Shown here piece by piece: positions 55,126-64,000 of a stretch of 64,000 bases of DNA; the stretch's first letter is position 1; every line of letters starts with the position of its first letter. A program made the position numbers and the translations under genes. Under the pieces are notes generated by a model. It was not told the DNA's origin, searched no databases, and was given only the letters and a program-made list of their open reading frames with translations. Source of the stretch: Cryomorphaceae bacterium 1068 (GTDB taxonomy: Bacteria; Bacteroidota; Bacteroidia; Flavobacteriales_D; Cryomorphaceae); NCBI GenBank assembly GCA_027214385.1, contig JAPVXR010000011.1, positions 1-64,000 of the forward strand, in the 5' to 3' direction.

Positions 55126-55917
55126 ATGGACAACTACCAAAACATTAACCGCCAGTCTTGGAACGACCGTGTCGACTCCCATCTCAAAAGTGACTTCTAC
55201 GATGTAGAAGGATTTTTAAAAGGCCAGACTTCTTTGAAGGAAATTGAGTTGCCCTTACTGGGTGATGTAAGCGGTAAATCCATTCTCCACCTACAGTGCC
55301 ATTTTGGACAGGATACGCTTTCGCTGGCGCGAATGGGAGCCAAGTGCACGGGAATCGACCTTTCCGATAAGGCCATTGCTTCCGCGAAAGAAATCAACGA
55401 CAAACTCGATCTCGATACTAGGTTTATCGCTTGTGATGTTTATGACACACCGAATCATGTCGATGAGAAATTCGATATCGTTTACACCAGTTATGGTACG
55501 ATCGGCTGGTTGCCCGACATCAGCCGTTGGGCCGAGGTGATTGCTCATTTTTTAAAGCCGGGAGGCAAGCTCGTTTTTGTGGAGTTTCATCCGGTAGTAT
55601 GGATGTTCGACGATGATTTCACGGAAGTGAAATACCCGTACAACAATGCCGATCCGATAGTGGAAGAGGAGAGCGGCACCTACGCCGATCGGGATGCCAA
55701 GATCAAACCGAAATCCGTGTCTTGGAATCACGGCCTCGGTGAAGTCATTTCGGCATTACTAAAAGTCGGCCTGCAAATAGAGTCTTTCAAGGAGTACGAT
55801 TATTCACCTTACGACTGCTTCAATGGTACGGTGGAATTTGAGCCGGGAAAGTTTCAAATCGAGAAGTTGGGCGATAAGATACCGATGGTGTATTCGGTGG
55901 TGGCCTTGCAGCGCTGA
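55126..55917 (+). CDS. Class I SAM-dependent methyltransferase
   Basis: A 263-residue cytosolic methyltransferase. Motif I of the SAM site is ILHLQCHFGQDTLSLARMG, followed by CTGIDLSDKAIASAKEI (motif II), FDIVYTSYGTIGWLPDI (motif IV) and LKPGGKLVFVEFHPVVWM. The post-core segment with DADPIVEEESGTYADR-like sequence is variable. The substrate is unknown; no neighbouring pathway points to one. It is divergent from the MRJP-like gene, and no exact -7 box is visible in the 118-nt gap. Confidence 0.9.
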   Translation: MDNYQNINRQSWNDRVDSHLKSDFYDVEGFLKGQTSLKEIELPLLGDVSGKSILHLQCHFGQDTLSLARMGAKCTGIDLSDKAIASAKEINDKLDLDTRFIACDVYDTPNHVDEKFDIVYTSYGTIGWLPDISRWAEVIAHFLKPGGKLVFVEFHPVVWMFDDDFTEVKYPYNNADPIVEEESGTYADRDAKIKPKSVSWNHGLGEVISALLKVGLQIESFKEYDYSPYDCFNGTVEFEPGKFQIEKLGDKIPMVYSVVALQR

Positions 55918-56010
55918 GAATGTTTCTTCTTCCGCTAATTTAATGCACCTTTCGCTGAGATATATTTTTTTAATTTCAAGGTAACACCTAACTGCTGCCT
56001 TCGCACTGAT

Positions 56011-56148
56011 CATTCTCCCCCGAGCTGTAGCGAGCTCAGTGTACTCATCTTTTAGACCTTAACTCGCAAAATACTTCTCTGTGTCCTCTGTGCAACAAAC
56101 CTCCGCGCCCAATCGATCTACGCACTACTCAATACGCCTAAACCCTAT
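56011..56148. repeat. Duplicated 3' flank, copy A
   Basis: 138 bp between CATTCTCC at 56011 and the stop of the giant gene at 56149. It aligns with 61240-61377: shared blocks are CATTCTCC, CGAGCT-TAGCGAGCTCAGTG, a CACAGAGGA-type 9-bp periodic block on the minus strand, CGCCCAATCGA and the CTAC heptamer. The block GAGCT...AGCTC can form a short hairpin. No gene is visible here. Confidence 0.8.
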
Positions 56149-59100
56149 TTACCAAACGAACTTCTCCGTAGCCATCTCTTGACCATTCGACAACCGCAAC
56201 AAATAAGCTCCATTAGCCAAATCTGGATAAATGGTTCCAAATCCATTTCCACCGTTTTCGAGAGATTCTACGTGCACTCGTTTTCCGAGTAGATCGAAAA
56301 CTTCAACGGTCACAAAAGGAGCGGTAGCGTGGTAGATGACGTTGAGTCCTTCCTGGGCGTGATAGACCTGATCGAGTGCAAAATCGCCGTTTGAAAGCAC
56401 TTCGACCGCCTGCGGTTCGCTCAAGGTAGAGGTTCCGTCGAAATCGGTTTGGCGCAGGCGGTAGTATGATATTCCCGTATATGGTCTTTGGTCGGTGAGG
56501 GAGTAGGAGAGTTCGGTGTGGGAATCGCCTGCACCTTCAATGGTTCCTACCTGCTCCCAAAAAATTCCGTCTTTGGATCGCTCGATGGAAAAGAAATCGT
56601 TGTTGATTTCGGTGGCGGTAATCCAATCGGTGATGACTTGTTGCCCTTTCGCTTCCGCTTGAAAGGAGAGGAGGGTGATGGGGAGGACGTTTGAATTCCC
56701 CACCTCAGGACCCGAAAGAACAAACTCTCCATAATCACTTCCAACGGCTACCCCAACGGCCTGATCCAATTCTATTTCAGTACCATTGTCAGCTGATGGA
56801 ATTTCATCCCACGAGAATCCATTCCATCTCGAAATACGGATGAATTCGGGTGCACCAACTACATTGCAATATTCGGGATCAGAGTTGGTAAATCGCACGC
56901 CAAATATGGGGTCAGCAGTGCCCGCTACTTGTTCAAACCTCCAGTAGTCGCAGTTACCAATTTCTTGGAAATCGTTAATATTATTTGATTCTCCGTCGTA
57001 GTACAGCCCTGCGTTCGGATGCTCTTCGGCATAATATCGCGCTGAAAAACCACTGGTTCCGGTCAGTCCAAACATGACAAGTGGTTGGTAAAAGCTACCC
57101 CCATCAGCGTGCGTATCGCCTATAGGGAAGTCAAAATCGGCTGAACCAAACTTCACCACGGTACCGTCTACAAAACTGGCATTACTCATTCCAATCGCTG
57201 TAGCTGAAGTTGAGAATTCTACATCCGCGGGATTCGAAGCCAGATCATCAATTTCATAAATACCGTCAATAAATCGAGCTTCTCGATTTACGTTTAAAGA
57301 AAACTCTGTAAAGAAGTCACCTGCTGGTTTATTGATTTCAAATTCGTTTACCGATAAGGCATTTCCATCGCCGATTCCTAGCTGATCACCATTTCCCGAC
57401 AGGACTAGTTGCCCGCGGCCCGCAACTGTTGATGATGTGAAATCCAAAGAGCCTTCTACTGTGAGATCACCCTTGACTTCTATTCCCGTTCCTTCATTAC
57501 TTCCACCTGTATCGTTATTAGTGAGCGTAGAGCCCGCTTGAATAATCAATTCTCCATTAACCAAAATCGGATCAGTATTCAGGTTATTGGTTATCATCGT
57601 ATATCCTCCTGTTCCACTTCCTCCAATGTTTAAGTTTCCATAAATGACCGGGCGACTGGAAGAACCTTGAAAGAAATACAAGTTAGATCCGGGAGTATAG
57701 TTTCCGCCAACATTATTTTCAAAAGTGAGGTTGGGATAATACATGTCAGTAGAGGCAACAGAAACTTCGTTCACCGCTTCTCTTCTGTATATCCAGTTAG
57801 CCGTAGCCGGGATGTTTACGATACCCGTCTCGTAATTGTCTCTATATCGACTTACCGATGAGGTGTTGGTTTTGATGATGGTAGCACCTGGCGCAATTTC
57901 CCAAGTGGCGTCGGTATTAAATTCAATTCCATCAGGCGAAGAAGCTTGATCGAAATAAGTGCCGTTGATAGTGAAATCTGCCCCACTCACCTCTCCATTA
58001 TTGATGAAGAGTTCACCTCCCTCGCCGATTGCTAAAACACCATTCGAATTCACATCTAACTCATCAATGGTGATGGCAACATTGTCTAGAAAGATTGAGT
58101 CTCCACTCAAGATATTCACTTTCGAAGAACCACTTTCAGTAGGGTATTGGCAGGCCGCCACATAACTTCCAAACTCCGTATCGCTCATCTGCCAATTGGC
58201 GACATTGGTCCAATCACCACTGCCGTTTGAACGATAGAAAGCACGGGTTTCGTAAGTGTACTGGGCAGCGTTGCTAGACCTCGTACAGTCGGGAGTGCCA
58301 TCTGCTGTGATGTCTACATAAAATTGGTAATCGAGTAAGCTTGCGGTGTTTCCGGTAATGGTAATCGATGAAGTCCCTGAGCCAGTGACGATCAAACCAT
58401 TCACACCATTTAACGAGCTGACCAATTCCCATGTATCCGTGCCAGGCTCATTGTAACGCCACACGTAAGGGTTAGTGGGATTAAATATTGGGTCTGCCGT
58501 TGCGGTCACGCTAAACGTCAATGCGGAGCAATCAACATCCAATGGCTGCGTACTAATGGTAACATCAGACCCATTTGGGACGAAAGGTGCGATACCTAGA
58601 TCGTCGCACACTTCGTTTGCTCCGATAGTCCAGTCGGCTGCCATATAGGTGGTCGAGGGAGAGGTAACACTGCCGTTTCTGGACTGACTAAAACCAGGCT
58701 GAGAGCCACCGCTTCCGCCAGCATCGGGATGGTTTGGGTTGGGTGCGTAATCTAGGTCTGCATTGTTTTTTCTAAGGTAGATTCTGTCATCGCCGTTAAA
58801 ACCGGGGGCTAAGGGAAGATCTTGATCCGGACTAAAATTTGAACAGGTGGATGAACTTGATCCTAAGCGTAAGATATACGTATCACCACTCGCTAAATTC
58901 CCCGTCATCGGGTAATCACTATCGGTAGAGGTTCCGGTGCGTATTCGAATCACATAATTATCAGTTGCCAGATTTACAGTAGCATTGGTCCCATTGAAGA
59001 TCTCAACGTAACTCAGGCTTCCTGAATTCGCGTCATACACTTCACTTATAAAGAGGTCGCTCGCAAAGGAGCCACCGCCACCTGAGGCACCGCAGTCTCC

Positions 59101-60726
59101 ATCATCCACGAGTAAAGTGAAATTTTGACCTGATTGAGTTTCGCATCCCGCGACCGTAACTCCGATACTCCCTGAGGTAGCGTTCTCTGGAATTTCTGCA
59201 ATGATGGTGTTGTCGTCTATAACAGTAATTGATGTGGCATTGATACCGCTAAGCGAGGCGGCTGTGGCACCAGTGAATCCGCTACCCGAAATGGTGACTA
59301 GGGTTCCTGCCGGGCCTGAAGTTGGAAGGATTGATGTAATTGCATGAGTTGGCGTGCAGGAAGGGGCAATTCCGCATATTTTTACATTGTCAATAATACC
59401 ATAATCTCCGCCTCCATTCTGTTCAGCACCAATAACAATAGATGCCGTTAATGTTCCAGGAGATAGATTAACAGTAACCGTTCCGCTTGCAGAAGTATTA
59501 CTCGTTCCATCCACTAATTGGACTTCGCCGATGCTTAGTCCATCTTCGAATACTTCATAAAAAAGATCGTCACCTCCGTCAAATTCAAATACTTTATAGT
59601 CAAAACTTATGGTGGCGGCGGTATAGCCCGCTATATTTTGATTGCTGAAAGTCAATTCGTGACGAAAACTTCCTCCTCCGTTTCCATTATTCAAATCCTG
59701 CATTGCCCAGAGATTCGTGCCATCTGTTGCATTTAACCCAAGAAAAGGAGAGCCCTCAATGTCCCAGACATCTCCCGATACATTATAAGGCACAGGTGAG
59801 GCTGTATAGCTCCACGAATCCCCTACTTCAAAACTTTGAATCGCAATACATATTGGCCCATTATCCGTTGTGCAGTCCGTTTGAGGAGCGGCAGGACTGG
59901 TTTTATAATCAATGGTTGATCCTGAGTTGGAATAGGACCAAATCTTAAAGAAATATTGGGTATTGGGATCTAGGCCGCTGATTGAGGCCGATTCTATTCC
60001 TTGATTTACCGTTGTTGAATTTGGACCGTTTGAATCAGAAAGATCAGTGGGATTTGAGATGGCTGCATAGCTCACATCCGACCATTTGATAAGGTAGCCA
60101 TCTGGTAGATCAGTTCCTATGGCATCCGTCCAGGTAAGGTCAATCTGATCATCAGAGAAGGTGGTGCAAGAAAAGAGGGTGGGGTGGTTGGTCGGTTCGG
60201 GGTTGCTCGAGCCACTAAAAACAGATAGTTCCAAATCGTCAATAATCAAGTGTCCAGGGTTATCATCGCTGAGGATTCGTACCTGCAGATTACTACTTCC
60301 GTTATTAATAGAATACGAATACTGTTGATAAGACTGACCTGAATATGCCTGAGTAGCTACAGTAGAAAAAGTGACACCATCAGTTGAAGTTTGAATTTCA
60401 AAAGTCCCTCCACCAGAATTCAACTCACGGTACCAAAAAATGATATCACCAATTCCATTTTGAGCAGGAGAGGTGAGGTATGAGTTTGGAATGTCGTCAT
60501 TAATTCGAGCAGCCGCTGTACCAGTCCTGGAGTTTCCAGAAGACTCTCTGAAAACATTCCTAACCTCCCAACTACCGCTAGAGAGACTCACATTTCCTGT
60601 TGTATACGAGCCTGGGAGTCCAGTTTCAAAACCTTCTGATATTTGTGACTGTCCAATCTCAGCAAAAATCAAAAAGATGAATAGAAAGAAAAACCTCTCG
60701 ACGGAAGTTAATGACGAAATAAGCAT
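56149..60726 (-). CDS. Giant multidomain T9SS cargo protein
   Basis: A 1525-residue secreted protein. Residues about 10-28 are a signal peptide ending GQS. Then come a jelly-roll/MAM-like domain (about 30-170), a fibronectin-III-like domain (about 180-285), a second jelly roll (290-450), an IPT/TIG domain (ITSILPTSGPAGTLVTISG, about 460-540) and a lamin-tail-like domain (DLFISEVYDANSGSLSYVEI, about 560-690). A long beta-helix-like part (about 840-1200) precedes a conserved LPITLLSFQAE module and a type A T9SS sorting domain ending EKFVW. No enzyme motif is seen; adhesion is an inference. The last 180 residues are a near copy of those at 61378. Confidence 0.9.
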   Translation of the reverse strand: MLISSLTSVERFFFLFIFLIFAEIGQSQISEGFETGLPGSYTTGNVSLSSGSWEVRNVFRESSGNSRTGTAAARINDDIPNSYLTSPAQNGIGDIIFWYRELNSGGGTFEIQTSTDGVTFSTVATQAYSGQSYQQYSYSINNGSSNLQVRILSDDNPGHLIIDDLELSVFSGSSNPEPTNHPTLFSCTTFSDDQIDLTWTDAIGTDLPDGYLIKWSDVSYAAISNPTDLSDSNGPNSTTVNQGIESASISGLDPNTQYFFKIWSYSNSGSTIDYKTSPAAPQTDCTTDNGPICIAIQSFEVGDSWSYTASPVPYNVSGDVWDIEGSPFLGLNATDGTNLWAMQDLNNGNGGGSFRHELTFSNQNIAGYTAATISFDYKVFEFDGGDDLFYEVFEDGLSIGEVQLVDGTSNTSASGTVTVNLSPGTLTASIVIGAEQNGGGDYGIIDNVKICGIAPSCTPTHAITSILPTSGPAGTLVTISGSGFTGATAASLSGINATSITVIDDNTIIAEIPENATSGSIGVTVAGCETQSGQNFTLLVDDGDCGASGGGGSFASDLFISEVYDANSGSLSYVEIFNGTNATVNLATDNYVIRIRTGTSTDSDYPMTGNLASGDTYILRLGSSSSTCSNFSPDQDLPLAPGFNGDDRIYLRKNNADLDYAPNPNHPDAGGSGGSQPGFSQSRNGSVTSPSTTYMAADWTIGANEVCDDLGIAPFVPNGSDVTISTQPLDVDCSALTFSVTATADPIFNPTNPYVWRYNEPGTDTWELVSSLNGVNGLIVTGSGTSSITITGNTASLLDYQFYVDITADGTPDCTRSSNAAQYTYETRAFYRSNGSGDWTNVANWQMSDTEFGSYVAACQYPTESGSSKVNILSGDSIFLDNVAITIDELDVNSNGVLAIGEGGELFINNGEVSGADFTINGTYFDQASSPDGIEFNTDATWEIAPGATIIKTNTSSVSRYRDNYETGIVNIPATANWIYRREAVNEVSVASTDMYYPNLTFENNVGGNYTPGSNLYFFQGSSSRPVIYGNLNIGGSGTGGYTMITNNLNTDPILVNGELIIQAGSTLTNNDTGGSNEGTGIEVKGDLTVEGSLDFTSSTVAGRGQLVLSGNGDQLGIGDGNALSVNEFEINKPAGDFFTEFSLNVNREARFIDGIYEIDDLASNPADVEFSTSATAIGMSNASFVDGTVVKFGSADFDFPIGDTHADGGSFYQPLVMFGLTGTSGFSARYYAEEHPNAGLYYDGESNNINDFQEIGNCDYWRFEQVAGTADPIFGVRFTNSDPEYCNVVGAPEFIRISRWNGFSWDEIPSADNGTEIELDQAVGVAVGSDYGEFVLSGPEVGNSNVLPITLLSFQAEAKGQQVITDWITATEINNDFFSIERSKDGIFWEQVGTIEGAGDSHTELSYSLTDQRPYTGISYYRLRQTDFDGTSTLSEPQAVEVLSNGDFALDQVYHAQEGLNVIYHATAPFVTVEVFDLLGKRVHVESLENGGNGFGTIYPDLANGAYLLRLSNGQEMATEKFVW

Positions 60727-60751
60727 TTACAATCGGTTAAGTACTATCCAA

Positions 60752-60759
60752 CGAAGATA
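60752..60759 (-). promoter_or_regulatory. Possible -7 box (TATCTTCG) of the giant gene
   Basis: TATCTTCG on the minus strand, the same variant as at 45540, with a predicted start near 60745 and a leader of about 19 nt to the ATG at 60726. No -33 TTG is visible at the usual spacing. Confidence 0.45.
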
Positions 60760-60871
60760 CCCATTTTAACCCTGACCGCTAAGGCCTTAACATTACCGTA
60801 TTGTAAACGATTCGTTCATTTTTATAAACAGTATCCCAAAGAAACATGGGAAATCAGGAGCCTTAAGCTTT

Positions 60872-60934
60872 CTGCCTGAAGCCTGCAGCATACTGCCTGT
60901 AGCCTACAGCACAAAGCCTGAAGCCCGCTACCCA
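60872..60934. repeat. Imperfect tandem repeat, three copies of 21 bp
   Basis: Copies at 60872-60892, 60893-60913 and 60914-60934 share the core GCCTGNAGCC. Each copy is itself built of shorter CTG/AGC words. Confidence 0.85.
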
Positions 60935-60964
60935 CAAACCCACCTCCAACACCTATCCTCAAGT

Positions 60965-60997
60965 ATACTTATCCCATACCTATCCCATACCTATCCC
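60965..60997. repeat. Tandem repeat, three copies of ATACCTATCCC
   Basis: Copies at 60965-60975 (one mismatch), 60976-60986 and 60987-60997, period 11 bp. Confidence 0.9.
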
Positions 60998-61130
60998 TAA
61001 CCAACTCCTATTCATTTCCTTTTTTGGTCTCAAATCATCCCGTTCGGGTCATAATTGGACAATTGCAGACAATCTTTCCCAATTATTCTGTCAAATCACT
61101 ATTCCGGATAGATTGTGAAATTTTAATTAC

Positions 61131-61155
61131 GACCATCGACCATCGACCATCGACC
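61131..61155. repeat. Tandem heptamer array, GACCATC x3.6
   Basis: Three perfect copies at 61131-61151 and a partial GACC. The period equals that of the array at 50301, but the unit differs. Confidence 0.93.
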
Positions 61156-61215
61156 TCGCCCCAAATCTCCCTTATCTCATGACGATTTGCTTGCAGCTGG
61201 CAGCCAAGTCCCAAT

Positions 61216-61233
61216 TTACCAAACAACCTTTTC
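61216..61233 (-). pseudogene. Vestige of a third T9SS sorting-domain end (EKVVW-stop)
   Basis: On the minus strand 61233-61216 reads GAA AAG GTT GTT TGG TAA, that is EKVVW-stop. The two large cargo genes end EKFVW-stop, and bases after the stop (ATTGG) also resemble those after the 56149 gene (ATAGG). It lies directly beyond copy B of the duplicated flank and has no intact coding sequence behind it. Confidence 0.5.
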
Positions 61234-61239
61234 ACGCCT

Positions 61240-61377
61240 CATTCTCCACCGAGCTTTAGCGAGCTCAGTGCCCTCGTCTTTCAGGCTTTGCTTGTCAAGA
61301 CCTCTCCGCGTCCTCGGTGTAAGAAAATTCAGCACGCCCAATCGAGCTACGAGCTACGAATTGCGCCCTTCGAACTA
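61240..61377. repeat. Duplicated 3' flank, copy B
   Basis: 138 bp from CATTCTCC at 61240 to the stop of the cargo gene at 61378, the same length as copy A at 56011-56148. It shares the GAGCT-TAGCGAGCTC block, the periodic GAGGACGCGGAG-type block on the minus strand and CGCCCAATCGAGCTAC. It contains the heptamer GAGCTAC twice (61344-61357). Confidence 0.8.
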
Positions 61378-64000
61378 CTACCAAACAAACTTCTCAGTAT
61401 CCATTTCACTCCCGTGTGAGAGTTTCAGTACATAAGCTCCGCGTGCCAAGTCGGGATGAATCGTAGCGAATCCGTTTCCATAATTCTCTAGGAGTTCACC
61501 ATGGATGCGCTTTCCGAGTAGATCATAGATCTCTACTACTACATAAGGCGCCGTTGATCGGTAAACTAAGTTGAGACCGTCCTGCCCACGGTAAACTTTG
61601 TCCAGACCGAAGTCGCTTCCTTGAAGAATCTCGACTGCTCTAATCTCGCTTACGGTGGTCGTTCCGTCAAAATCAGTTTGACGCAATCGATAGTAGGAAA
61701 TACCCGAATAAGGGGCGTCGTCTACAAAAGCATAAGCCAACTCCGTATTCGAATCACCGGCACCTTCTACCGTTCCCACTTCTTCCCAAGAACTACCGTC
61801 CTTGGATCGTTCTACGGTAAAGAAGTCATTGTTGATCTCGGAAGCAGTGATCCAGTTGGTATGAACCAAATCGTCCTTGACTTCGGCTTGGAAGGAAAGG
61901 AGGGTGATGGGGAGGACATTTGTTGTATTTGATGTAGCAATTGTAAATGGACTAAACGAAGAGATTGTTCCAGAGGTCACAGCTCCTACGGTGTATGGAA
62001 TAGGAGCGATACCGGAACCACCTACATCCTCCCACTCGCTTCCATTCCATCGTGCTACTCTCAAGTCAGCTGGATCCTGAATATCATAACACGTTGTAGA
62101 ATCTTTCCATTGAAGCTGCAATTGAGCGTCGATTGCAGGGCCAAAACGATTGACCTCCCAATAATTACAAGTCGAAGCCGAGACTAATCCCGGACCTAAT
62201 GGTGGAGGATTACTTGGGAAGCTGGTTCCAGGCAAATAGTTTTGGTGTATGTATTCAATACTGAATTCAAGTGCCGCATTGGTTGATGATGCGATTATAC
62301 CCGCAGGGCTCCAAACGGATACGGTATCACCAGGGCTAACGACCTCAAAATATCCAACTGGGAAAATACCTACAGTGCTGGCAAAACCATCTTTTCGAAC
62401 CACTCCATTAACATAAGAATTGAGTGCTCCACCACTAGGTAAGACATTGCTTCCAAAAATTACTTCTTCGCCTCCTAGCGGGTGGATAATACCTCCTAGG
62501 AAATCGGCATTGCCATTGATGCGGATATCACTTACCAGTTGCACGCCTTCCGCCAATTCTGAAGTATTTTGAATCACGATATCGTCAAAAACTTCTTCTC
62601 CCACACTTGAAATGGTTTGAACTTCAGAACCTACAAAATGAACCGTGCCCGTTTCGGTAACTGCACTTTCTCCCGCGAGATTGTTCCAATTTCCACCGAG
62701 GAATAACTCCTGACCATTGATGTTGAGGTTTCCGTTGCTTTCAATCTTCAGCTCATCCAGAACAGTTACGTCTTCTTGAAGCGTTTTCACCCCTGTATTA
62801 GCAAAAGTCAATTTAAAGAATACCTCTGAAGCTACTCCTCCAAAAGTATTAATGGTCTGGCTTTCAGTTCCGTTGAAAATAACCTCTTGCCCAGTTGGGT
62901 TAAATGCACTCGTTGCGCCTGATCGATTCCAATCTCCACCTATTTCGAATGTCCCTGAGTTCGTCGTGAGCGTAAACTGACTTCCCGTAATGGTTAGATC
63001 GTTCCTCAGTGAACGCGGGCTATTTAGTGTTAGGTCAGTACTCGCATCCCCCGAGCTTTCTACGTTGTATGGAATTCCTGGATTTCCTGAGGCAATGTCT
63101 CCATTATCCCAAGTTACATCATCTGCATCGACAACATAGCTGAAACCGTTTGCGAAACGAAGTAATGATGAATTTCCGTAATAACAAGAATTGAGGATGG
63201 CGTACCCACCTCCGGCTACCTCAAGTATTCCGTCGATCTTGGTTGGATTGCCTGTACCAAAATCAAAGCCTCCGTTTCCAATTCTGACTAGTACATCTTC
63301 CTCAAAAAGTAGTTTTGTGTTATTTTGGGAAACCACTTGCTTCGTTCTAAATCCAGGGTCAGTTCCACCTGTACCAATAGCTTGAAAAACGCTACTCGGA
63401 GATCCCGTTACACGACAAGTGTCAACTCCATCCACAATGATTTGCGCATCAAAAGCACCAGCACCTGCTACATTCTCAGCTGCCGAAAGTGTGTTGTTTC
63501 CTAAATCCAATGTGGAATTCACCATGCGAAGATCGCCGTTGAAGGTGCGATCGTCATTCAATGCTACCGATATCGATCCTGAAGCTCCGTTCAGGAATAA
63601 CTCGTCAACAGCATCGACATCTGATGAGAACTCAAACGAGCTGGTCATGGTGCCGGTATATTCAATATCGTATTGATCTGATCCAACTACCAATGGCTCT
63701 TTGTCAATCGTGGATGAGGTAGCTTCACGAAGGATTTTAGAATTATCCTCCATGATAAGGTTGGCATTACTTGTCGTAAAATCGAAGGCACCTTCAGTAA
63801 GCCTTAATCTATTATTAATGGTCAGGTTATCTGTTACACTCACGGTACCGCCTGTGAAGTTTACCGCAAGAAAATCAAATGTAAGGACACCGGAAATGGA
63901 GCTAGTTGAAGAGGCTCCATTAATCATAATCACCTCTCTATCATTGGGGTTAAACGTTCCTGATAGCAGAGAGAAATTTTCTTTTACAAATAGGTCTCCT
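61378..64000 (-). CDS. Large T9SS cargo protein, partial (N-terminus off the right edge)
   Basis: The frame is open from the right edge to a TAG stop at 61378, giving about 874 visible residues; the GTG at 63933 is an internal Val, as coding sequence continues upstream (GDLFVKENFSLLSGTFNPND). The visible part is a long beta-helix-like array with regularly spaced strands (VTDNLTINNRLRLTEGAF, LRMVNSTLDLGNNTLSAAEN, LDELKIESNGNLNINGQELF), then WEVNRFG and the LPITLLSFQAEVKDDLVHTN module, and a type A T9SS sorting domain ending in EKFVW. The last 180 residues closely match those of the 56149 gene, with the rest much more diverged. It is likely a cell-surface or secreted adhesin-like protein; no catalytic motif is visible. 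Confidence 0.88.
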   Translation of the reverse strand, partial: GDLFVKENFSLLSGTFNPNDREVIMINGASSTSSISGVLTFDFLAVNFTGGTVSVTDNLTINNRLRLTEGAFDFTTSNANLIMEDNSKILREATSSTIDKEPLVVGSDQYDIEYTGTMTSSFEFSSDVDAVDELFLNGASGSISVALNDDRTFNGDLRMVNSTLDLGNNTLSAAENVAGAGAFDAQIIVDGVDTCRVTGSPSSVFQAIGTGGTDPGFRTKQVVSQNNTKLLFEEDVLVRIGNGGFDFGTGNPTKIDGILEVAGGGYAILNSCYYGNSSLLRFANGFSYVVDADDVTWDNGDIASGNPGIPYNVESSGDASTDLTLNSPRSLRNDLTITGSQFTLTTNSGTFEIGGDWNRSGATSAFNPTGQEVIFNGTESQTINTFGGVASEVFFKLTFANTGVKTLQEDVTVLDELKIESNGNLNINGQELFLGGNWNNLAGESAVTETGTVHFVGSEVQTISSVGEEVFDDIVIQNTSELAEGVQLVSDIRINGNADFLGGIIHPLGGEEVIFGSNVLPSGGALNSYVNGVVRKDGFASTVGIFPVGYFEVVSPGDTVSVWSPAGIIASSTNAALEFSIEYIHQNYLPGTSFPSNPPPLGPGLVSASTCNYWEVNRFGPAIDAQLQLQWKDSTTCYDIQDPADLRVARWNGSEWEDVGGSGIAPIPYTVGAVTSGTISSFSPFTIATSNTTNVLPITLLSFQAEVKDDLVHTNWITASEINNDFFTVERSKDGSSWEEVGTVEGAGDSNTELAYAFVDDAPYSGISYYRLRQTDFDGTTTVSEIRAVEILQGSDFGLDKVYRGQDGLNLVYRSTAPYVVVEIYDLLGKRIHGELLENYGNGFATIHPDLARGAYVLKLSHGSEMDTEKFVW

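Follow-up and report, generated by a model that had tools for sequence, protein, structure and literature searches.

A sorting-domain-like terminus of five codons beyond the 3′ flank of a type IX cargo gene in Cryomorphaceae bacterium 1068

The window analysed here, the first 64,000 nucleotides of contig JAPVXR010000011.1 (C11 among the 59 contigs of the 4.32-Mb genome), carries on its minus strand two large cargo genes whose products end in EKFVW, together with a short stretch, site C, that is the subject of this study. Gene A (56149–60726) encodes 1525 residues and closes with EKFVW-TAA, its stop lying at 56149. Gene B, upstream of A, closes with EKFVW-TAG at 61378; its 3′ part occupies 61378–63999, and the whole open reading frame of 2944 residues runs from 70212 to 61378 in contig coordinates, partly beyond the window. 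Both proteins belong to TIGR04183, the type A sorting domain of type IX secretion (cut-off 23), gene A's at 33.5 bits and gene B's at 23.4 bits, the latter scored on an 851-residue part. With the Pfam model PF18962, A fell below the cut-off and B was absent from the listing. At least 150 places in the genome exceed the TIGR04183 cut-off, A and B not being among the matches listed.

Site C lies on the minus strand at 61233–61216 (GAAAAGGTTGTTTGGTAA; GAA AAG GTT GTT TGG TAA) and encodes EKVVW followed by a stop, one residue away from the ends of the two cargo genes, just as the sequence-only reading had described it. It consists of five codons and is no gene, for no sorting domain of about 70 residues stands upstream of it; the flank of gene B is found there instead, with AGGCGT at 61239–61234, and only 4 of 18 upstream bases are identical to those of gene A. 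On the other side, the ungapped match to the end of gene A continues through the bases after the stop (61215–61203), where AAATTGGGACTTGGC follows C and AAATAGGGTTTAGGC stands at the same place after gene A. Identity with the end of A is thus 20 of 24 bases, and 24 of 31 once the comparison is extended past the stop. The end of gene B agrees at only 15 of 24 bases because its post-stop bases do not match, and the earlier statement that matching bases follow the stop therefore holds for A and fails for B; that C adjoins copy B of a flank is borne out, as it lies directly beyond the flank common to A and B. The terminus sits 162 bases beyond the real end of B, and hence in the same frame, but three TAG codons intervene and we take the agreement in frame to be chance. 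A further 41 cargo ends were read in the genome (51 loci, less four without an ORF end and six repeats of the same gene); none of them finishes in W, and for this reason C is assigned to the A/B subtype. The observation of C as a real, small feature is confirmed.

How rare such a terminus is in spacer sequence depends on the query. With a 36-nt query from the end of gene A, the score of 17 obtained by C was reached by one of 5000 dinucleotide-shuffled versions of the 651-nt spacer and by none of 946 real 513-nt windows of the same genome, some of which overlap each other; when the better of the two queries, A or B, was taken over both strands, none of 5000 shuffles reached it. A 76-nt query from gene A gave a weaker result, with 17 reached in five of 1000 shuffles and three of the 946 real windows, which we attribute to the CGTAG-type repeat sequence that this query includes. 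Taken by itself, the end of B falls short of significance (33 of 1000 shuffles; six of the 946 windows at its score of 14). Over the spacers of the 41 other cargo genes, the highest scores were 12.5 for the A query and 14.3 for the B query. The pattern GARAARKTYGTNTGGTA, which was degenerated only once C was known, occurs exactly at three places in the genome, namely the end of A, C and the end of B, with two further sites at one mismatch; at up to two mismatches there are 39 sites, fewer than the 70 of a reversed-pattern control. The 15-mer core GTTTGGTAAATNGGG is at background in the same genome (four sites at up to one mismatch, against five for its control) and occurs exactly in two family members too, at places other than cargo ends.

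These figures bear on the simplest alternative, that a spacer stretch happens to resemble a terminus and was noticed because many spacers were scanned. The coding resemblance rests on 18 bases only, the first reading ranged over the whole window and so multiplied the opportunities, and the results for the longer query, the B end, the 15-mer and the late-degenerated pattern all lean this way. Against it stand the short-query shuffles and real windows, and the position of C, which immediately adjoins the end of the shared flank. Pure chance alone is, in our judgement, unlikely, if far from negligible.

The flank is part of a longer module. The 3′ parts of A and B are similar over 689 columns, 469 of them identical (68%), from the linker before the sorting domain to position 61239 (61922–61239 at B and 56693–56010 at A), and the end of this module is the start of the stretch of C. 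After each stop the flank extends for some 139 bases (61377–61239 in copy B, 56148–56010 in copy A). Copy B consists of a CGTAG-type stretch followed by an interspersed element at 61324–61236, and in copy A the element lies at 56097–56006. Flank and terminus together are 74% identical between A and B. Exact matches to the 17-mer CGTAGNTCGATTGGGCG, which lies between the stop and the element, are confined to A and B, so that the two flanks are probably of one origin. The seven other genomes of the family that were searched gave no match to the A/B flank at E 0.01 or better, and none was detected in the congeneric G001.

The core of the flank occurs in about ten copies across the genome as an interspersed intergenic repeat, and the suggestion of repeated cassette insertion at one site is not supported: the flank is no cassette end peculiar to the A/B genes. 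A model of the element built from five copies found at least 15 places at E 1 or better and at least 10 at 1.1e-5 or better, counts that include the five training copies and are lower bounds, with 150 of 340 candidates scored. The element is about 90 bases long, with boxes CACNGAG..C.GAGA, GACAAGCAAAGC and CACTGAGCTCGCTAAAGCTCG, and copies lie at C1:625040–625358, C1:634459, C20:15673, C20:38691, C20:39180 and C2:310805. Interspersed intergenic repeats of the REP type are the nearest familiar class; the flank core resembles them in its ten or so intergenic copies, often with a hairpin, whereas C itself is outside the repeat in the copies read. When 13 element copies and the 60 bases beyond each were inspected by eye, a terminus-like stretch followed only that of B, and the idea that C is part of the interspersed element was dropped, the other copies read showing nothing of the kind. 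Elsewhere in the same genome, at C1:132000–137000, degenerate CGTAGCTCGTAG, GGTCAGTGGGCAGTGG and GTCGATGGTCGG repeats form long arrays between genes.

Its place beside a shared and partly conserved flank might also indicate that C is a functional part of that flank, for example a processing or termination site. Nothing like C follows flank A or the other element copies read, however; no Rfam family reached its gathering score in 55900–61420, and the only terminator-like site in 60700–61420 lies at 60851–60834, away from C. We consider a function of this sort very improbable.

The coding parts of A and B tell of a longer separation. They share 67% of residues over 189, while their four-fold sites are identical at a fraction of 0.42 (60 sites) and thus saturated; the corresponding values against another genus, 0.42 for A and 0.43 for B, are similar, and on these grounds the gene pair is old. 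Their relatives in genome G005 are separate genes on different contigs (41% over 1395 residues for A, and 41% over 1183 residues for B with another gene), which again suggests from sequence comparison an old pair. With four-fold sites saturated, the idea that B recently received its entire sorting domain from A is rejected. The last eight codons agree at 23 of 27 positions and the eight before them at 10 of 24; a conversion tract confined to the last eight codons was considered and rejected, as much of this end is retained in the congeneric gene and constraint on the residues explains it. Given the 74% identity of the flanks, the saturation of the coding ends and the lack of a flank match in the seven genomes, the flank seems to have come to be shared later than the gene pair arose. 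The figure of 74% is no clean clock, because two other element copies are as alike (0.76) as those of A and B (0.73), the element being partly conserved between dispersed copies. A spacer common to A and B on their upstream side, as a tandem duplication of the whole unit would have left, was looked for without success, 90 of 300 shuffles scoring as high.

The sequence-only reading had proposed that C is what remains of a deleted third cargo gene, the deletion running from the end of flank B to the last codons of the gene and leaving five of them. Such a deletion would give the same junction and the same GAAAAGG overlap described below, and type IX cargo genes are plentiful in this genome. In the spacer between C and gene A (60727–61215), however, neither a decayed flank nor any cargo remnant was detectable: tblastn with five cargo proteins (A, B, one of G001 and two of G005) gave a best E of 0.49, and a second or decayed flank after C was not detected, shuffles scoring as high in 224 and in 83 of 300 trials. 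Short tandem-like repeats lie between A and B, with 21-base units at 60859–60928 (AGCCTGCAGC...) and CGACCATCGACCATCGACC at 61130–61160. In G001, the one congeneric genome compared, a single cargo gene of this type, ending in EKFIW, stands between the corresponding neighbours, the order being methyltransferase, a different plus-strand ORF, cargo gene, 174-residue ORF and a relative of the next cargo gene; the 174-residue ORF matches DNA upstream of gene B at 68%, and some 70 bases lie between the cargo gene and the end of a convergent ORF. The third gene would be an extra one that nothing else attests, and we hold it to be improbable. Of the earlier interpretation, then, the vestigial terminus stands as the most likely reading, given that chance is unlikely and that C lies directly beyond the shared flank, and the deleted gene is left unsupported.

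More specifically, there is in our view about an even chance that C is a short non-functional copy (18–31 bp) of a cargo 3′ end of the A/B type, a scar of recombination or replication. The similarity of the flanks grows weak beyond 61239, with 7 of 12 bases identical between 55998–56009 at A and 61227–61238 at B, and the similarity to the terminus begins at 61233. The two similarities meet in a short overlap, GAAAAGG (61233–61227, minus strand), which is what a join through small homology would leave and marks the putative junction; it is a weak feature, the flank matching at only 7 of 12 bases there. A and B are old paralogues with a composite flank common to their 3′ ends, and in the proposed scheme an A-type 3′ end with its flank would have been copied to a place beside gene B. 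In the course of this copying the flank's end (GTGNNAAGG) may have been joined, at the small GAAAAGG overlap, to a terminus of the A/B type (GARAAG), so that the terminus would be read twice, once as the real end of B and again as C 162 bases further on. Site C could be the displaced former end of B, or else the end of A copied once more. In the simplest history the copied 3′ end would have been joined to a terminus already present, or would have been copied twice, and no third cargo gene is required. Displacement of the end of B fits less well, because C resembles the post-stop bases of A and not those of B. The order and direction of these events, the mechanism of the junction and the supposition of one single event are all inferred. 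Against reading C as a scar are its shortness and the poor flank match just before the junction.

Recombination between paralogues, or template switching mediated by microhomology, leaves gene remnants and duplicated ends. Site C resembles such remnants in being a short copy that borders a segment present in duplicate and in the small overlap found at the putative junction. It reads like the C-terminal five residues and stop of the type A sorting domain (TIGR04183, Por_Secre_tail) in its A/B subtype, whereas the upstream domain and the gene are missing. A scar of this kind is probably ordinary. A broader view, that the 3′ ends of cargo genes (sorting terminus and downstream repeat) are copied between cargo genes by template switching, is a long shot; that the interspersed repeat helps sorting-domain ends to spread in this way, leaving terminus scars like C, is equally speculative.

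Literature searches found nothing on duplicate sorting-domain termini of this type. For surface proteins of Porphyromonas, domain rearrangement and gene conversion are described (PMC5266723).

In conclusion, C alone changes nothing about type IX secretion, and its main use is as a caution against inferring a lost gene from a few matching codons. If the reading of C as a scar is true, it would be a small fossil record, in one lineage, of the rearrangement of ends in a large family of secreted proteins.
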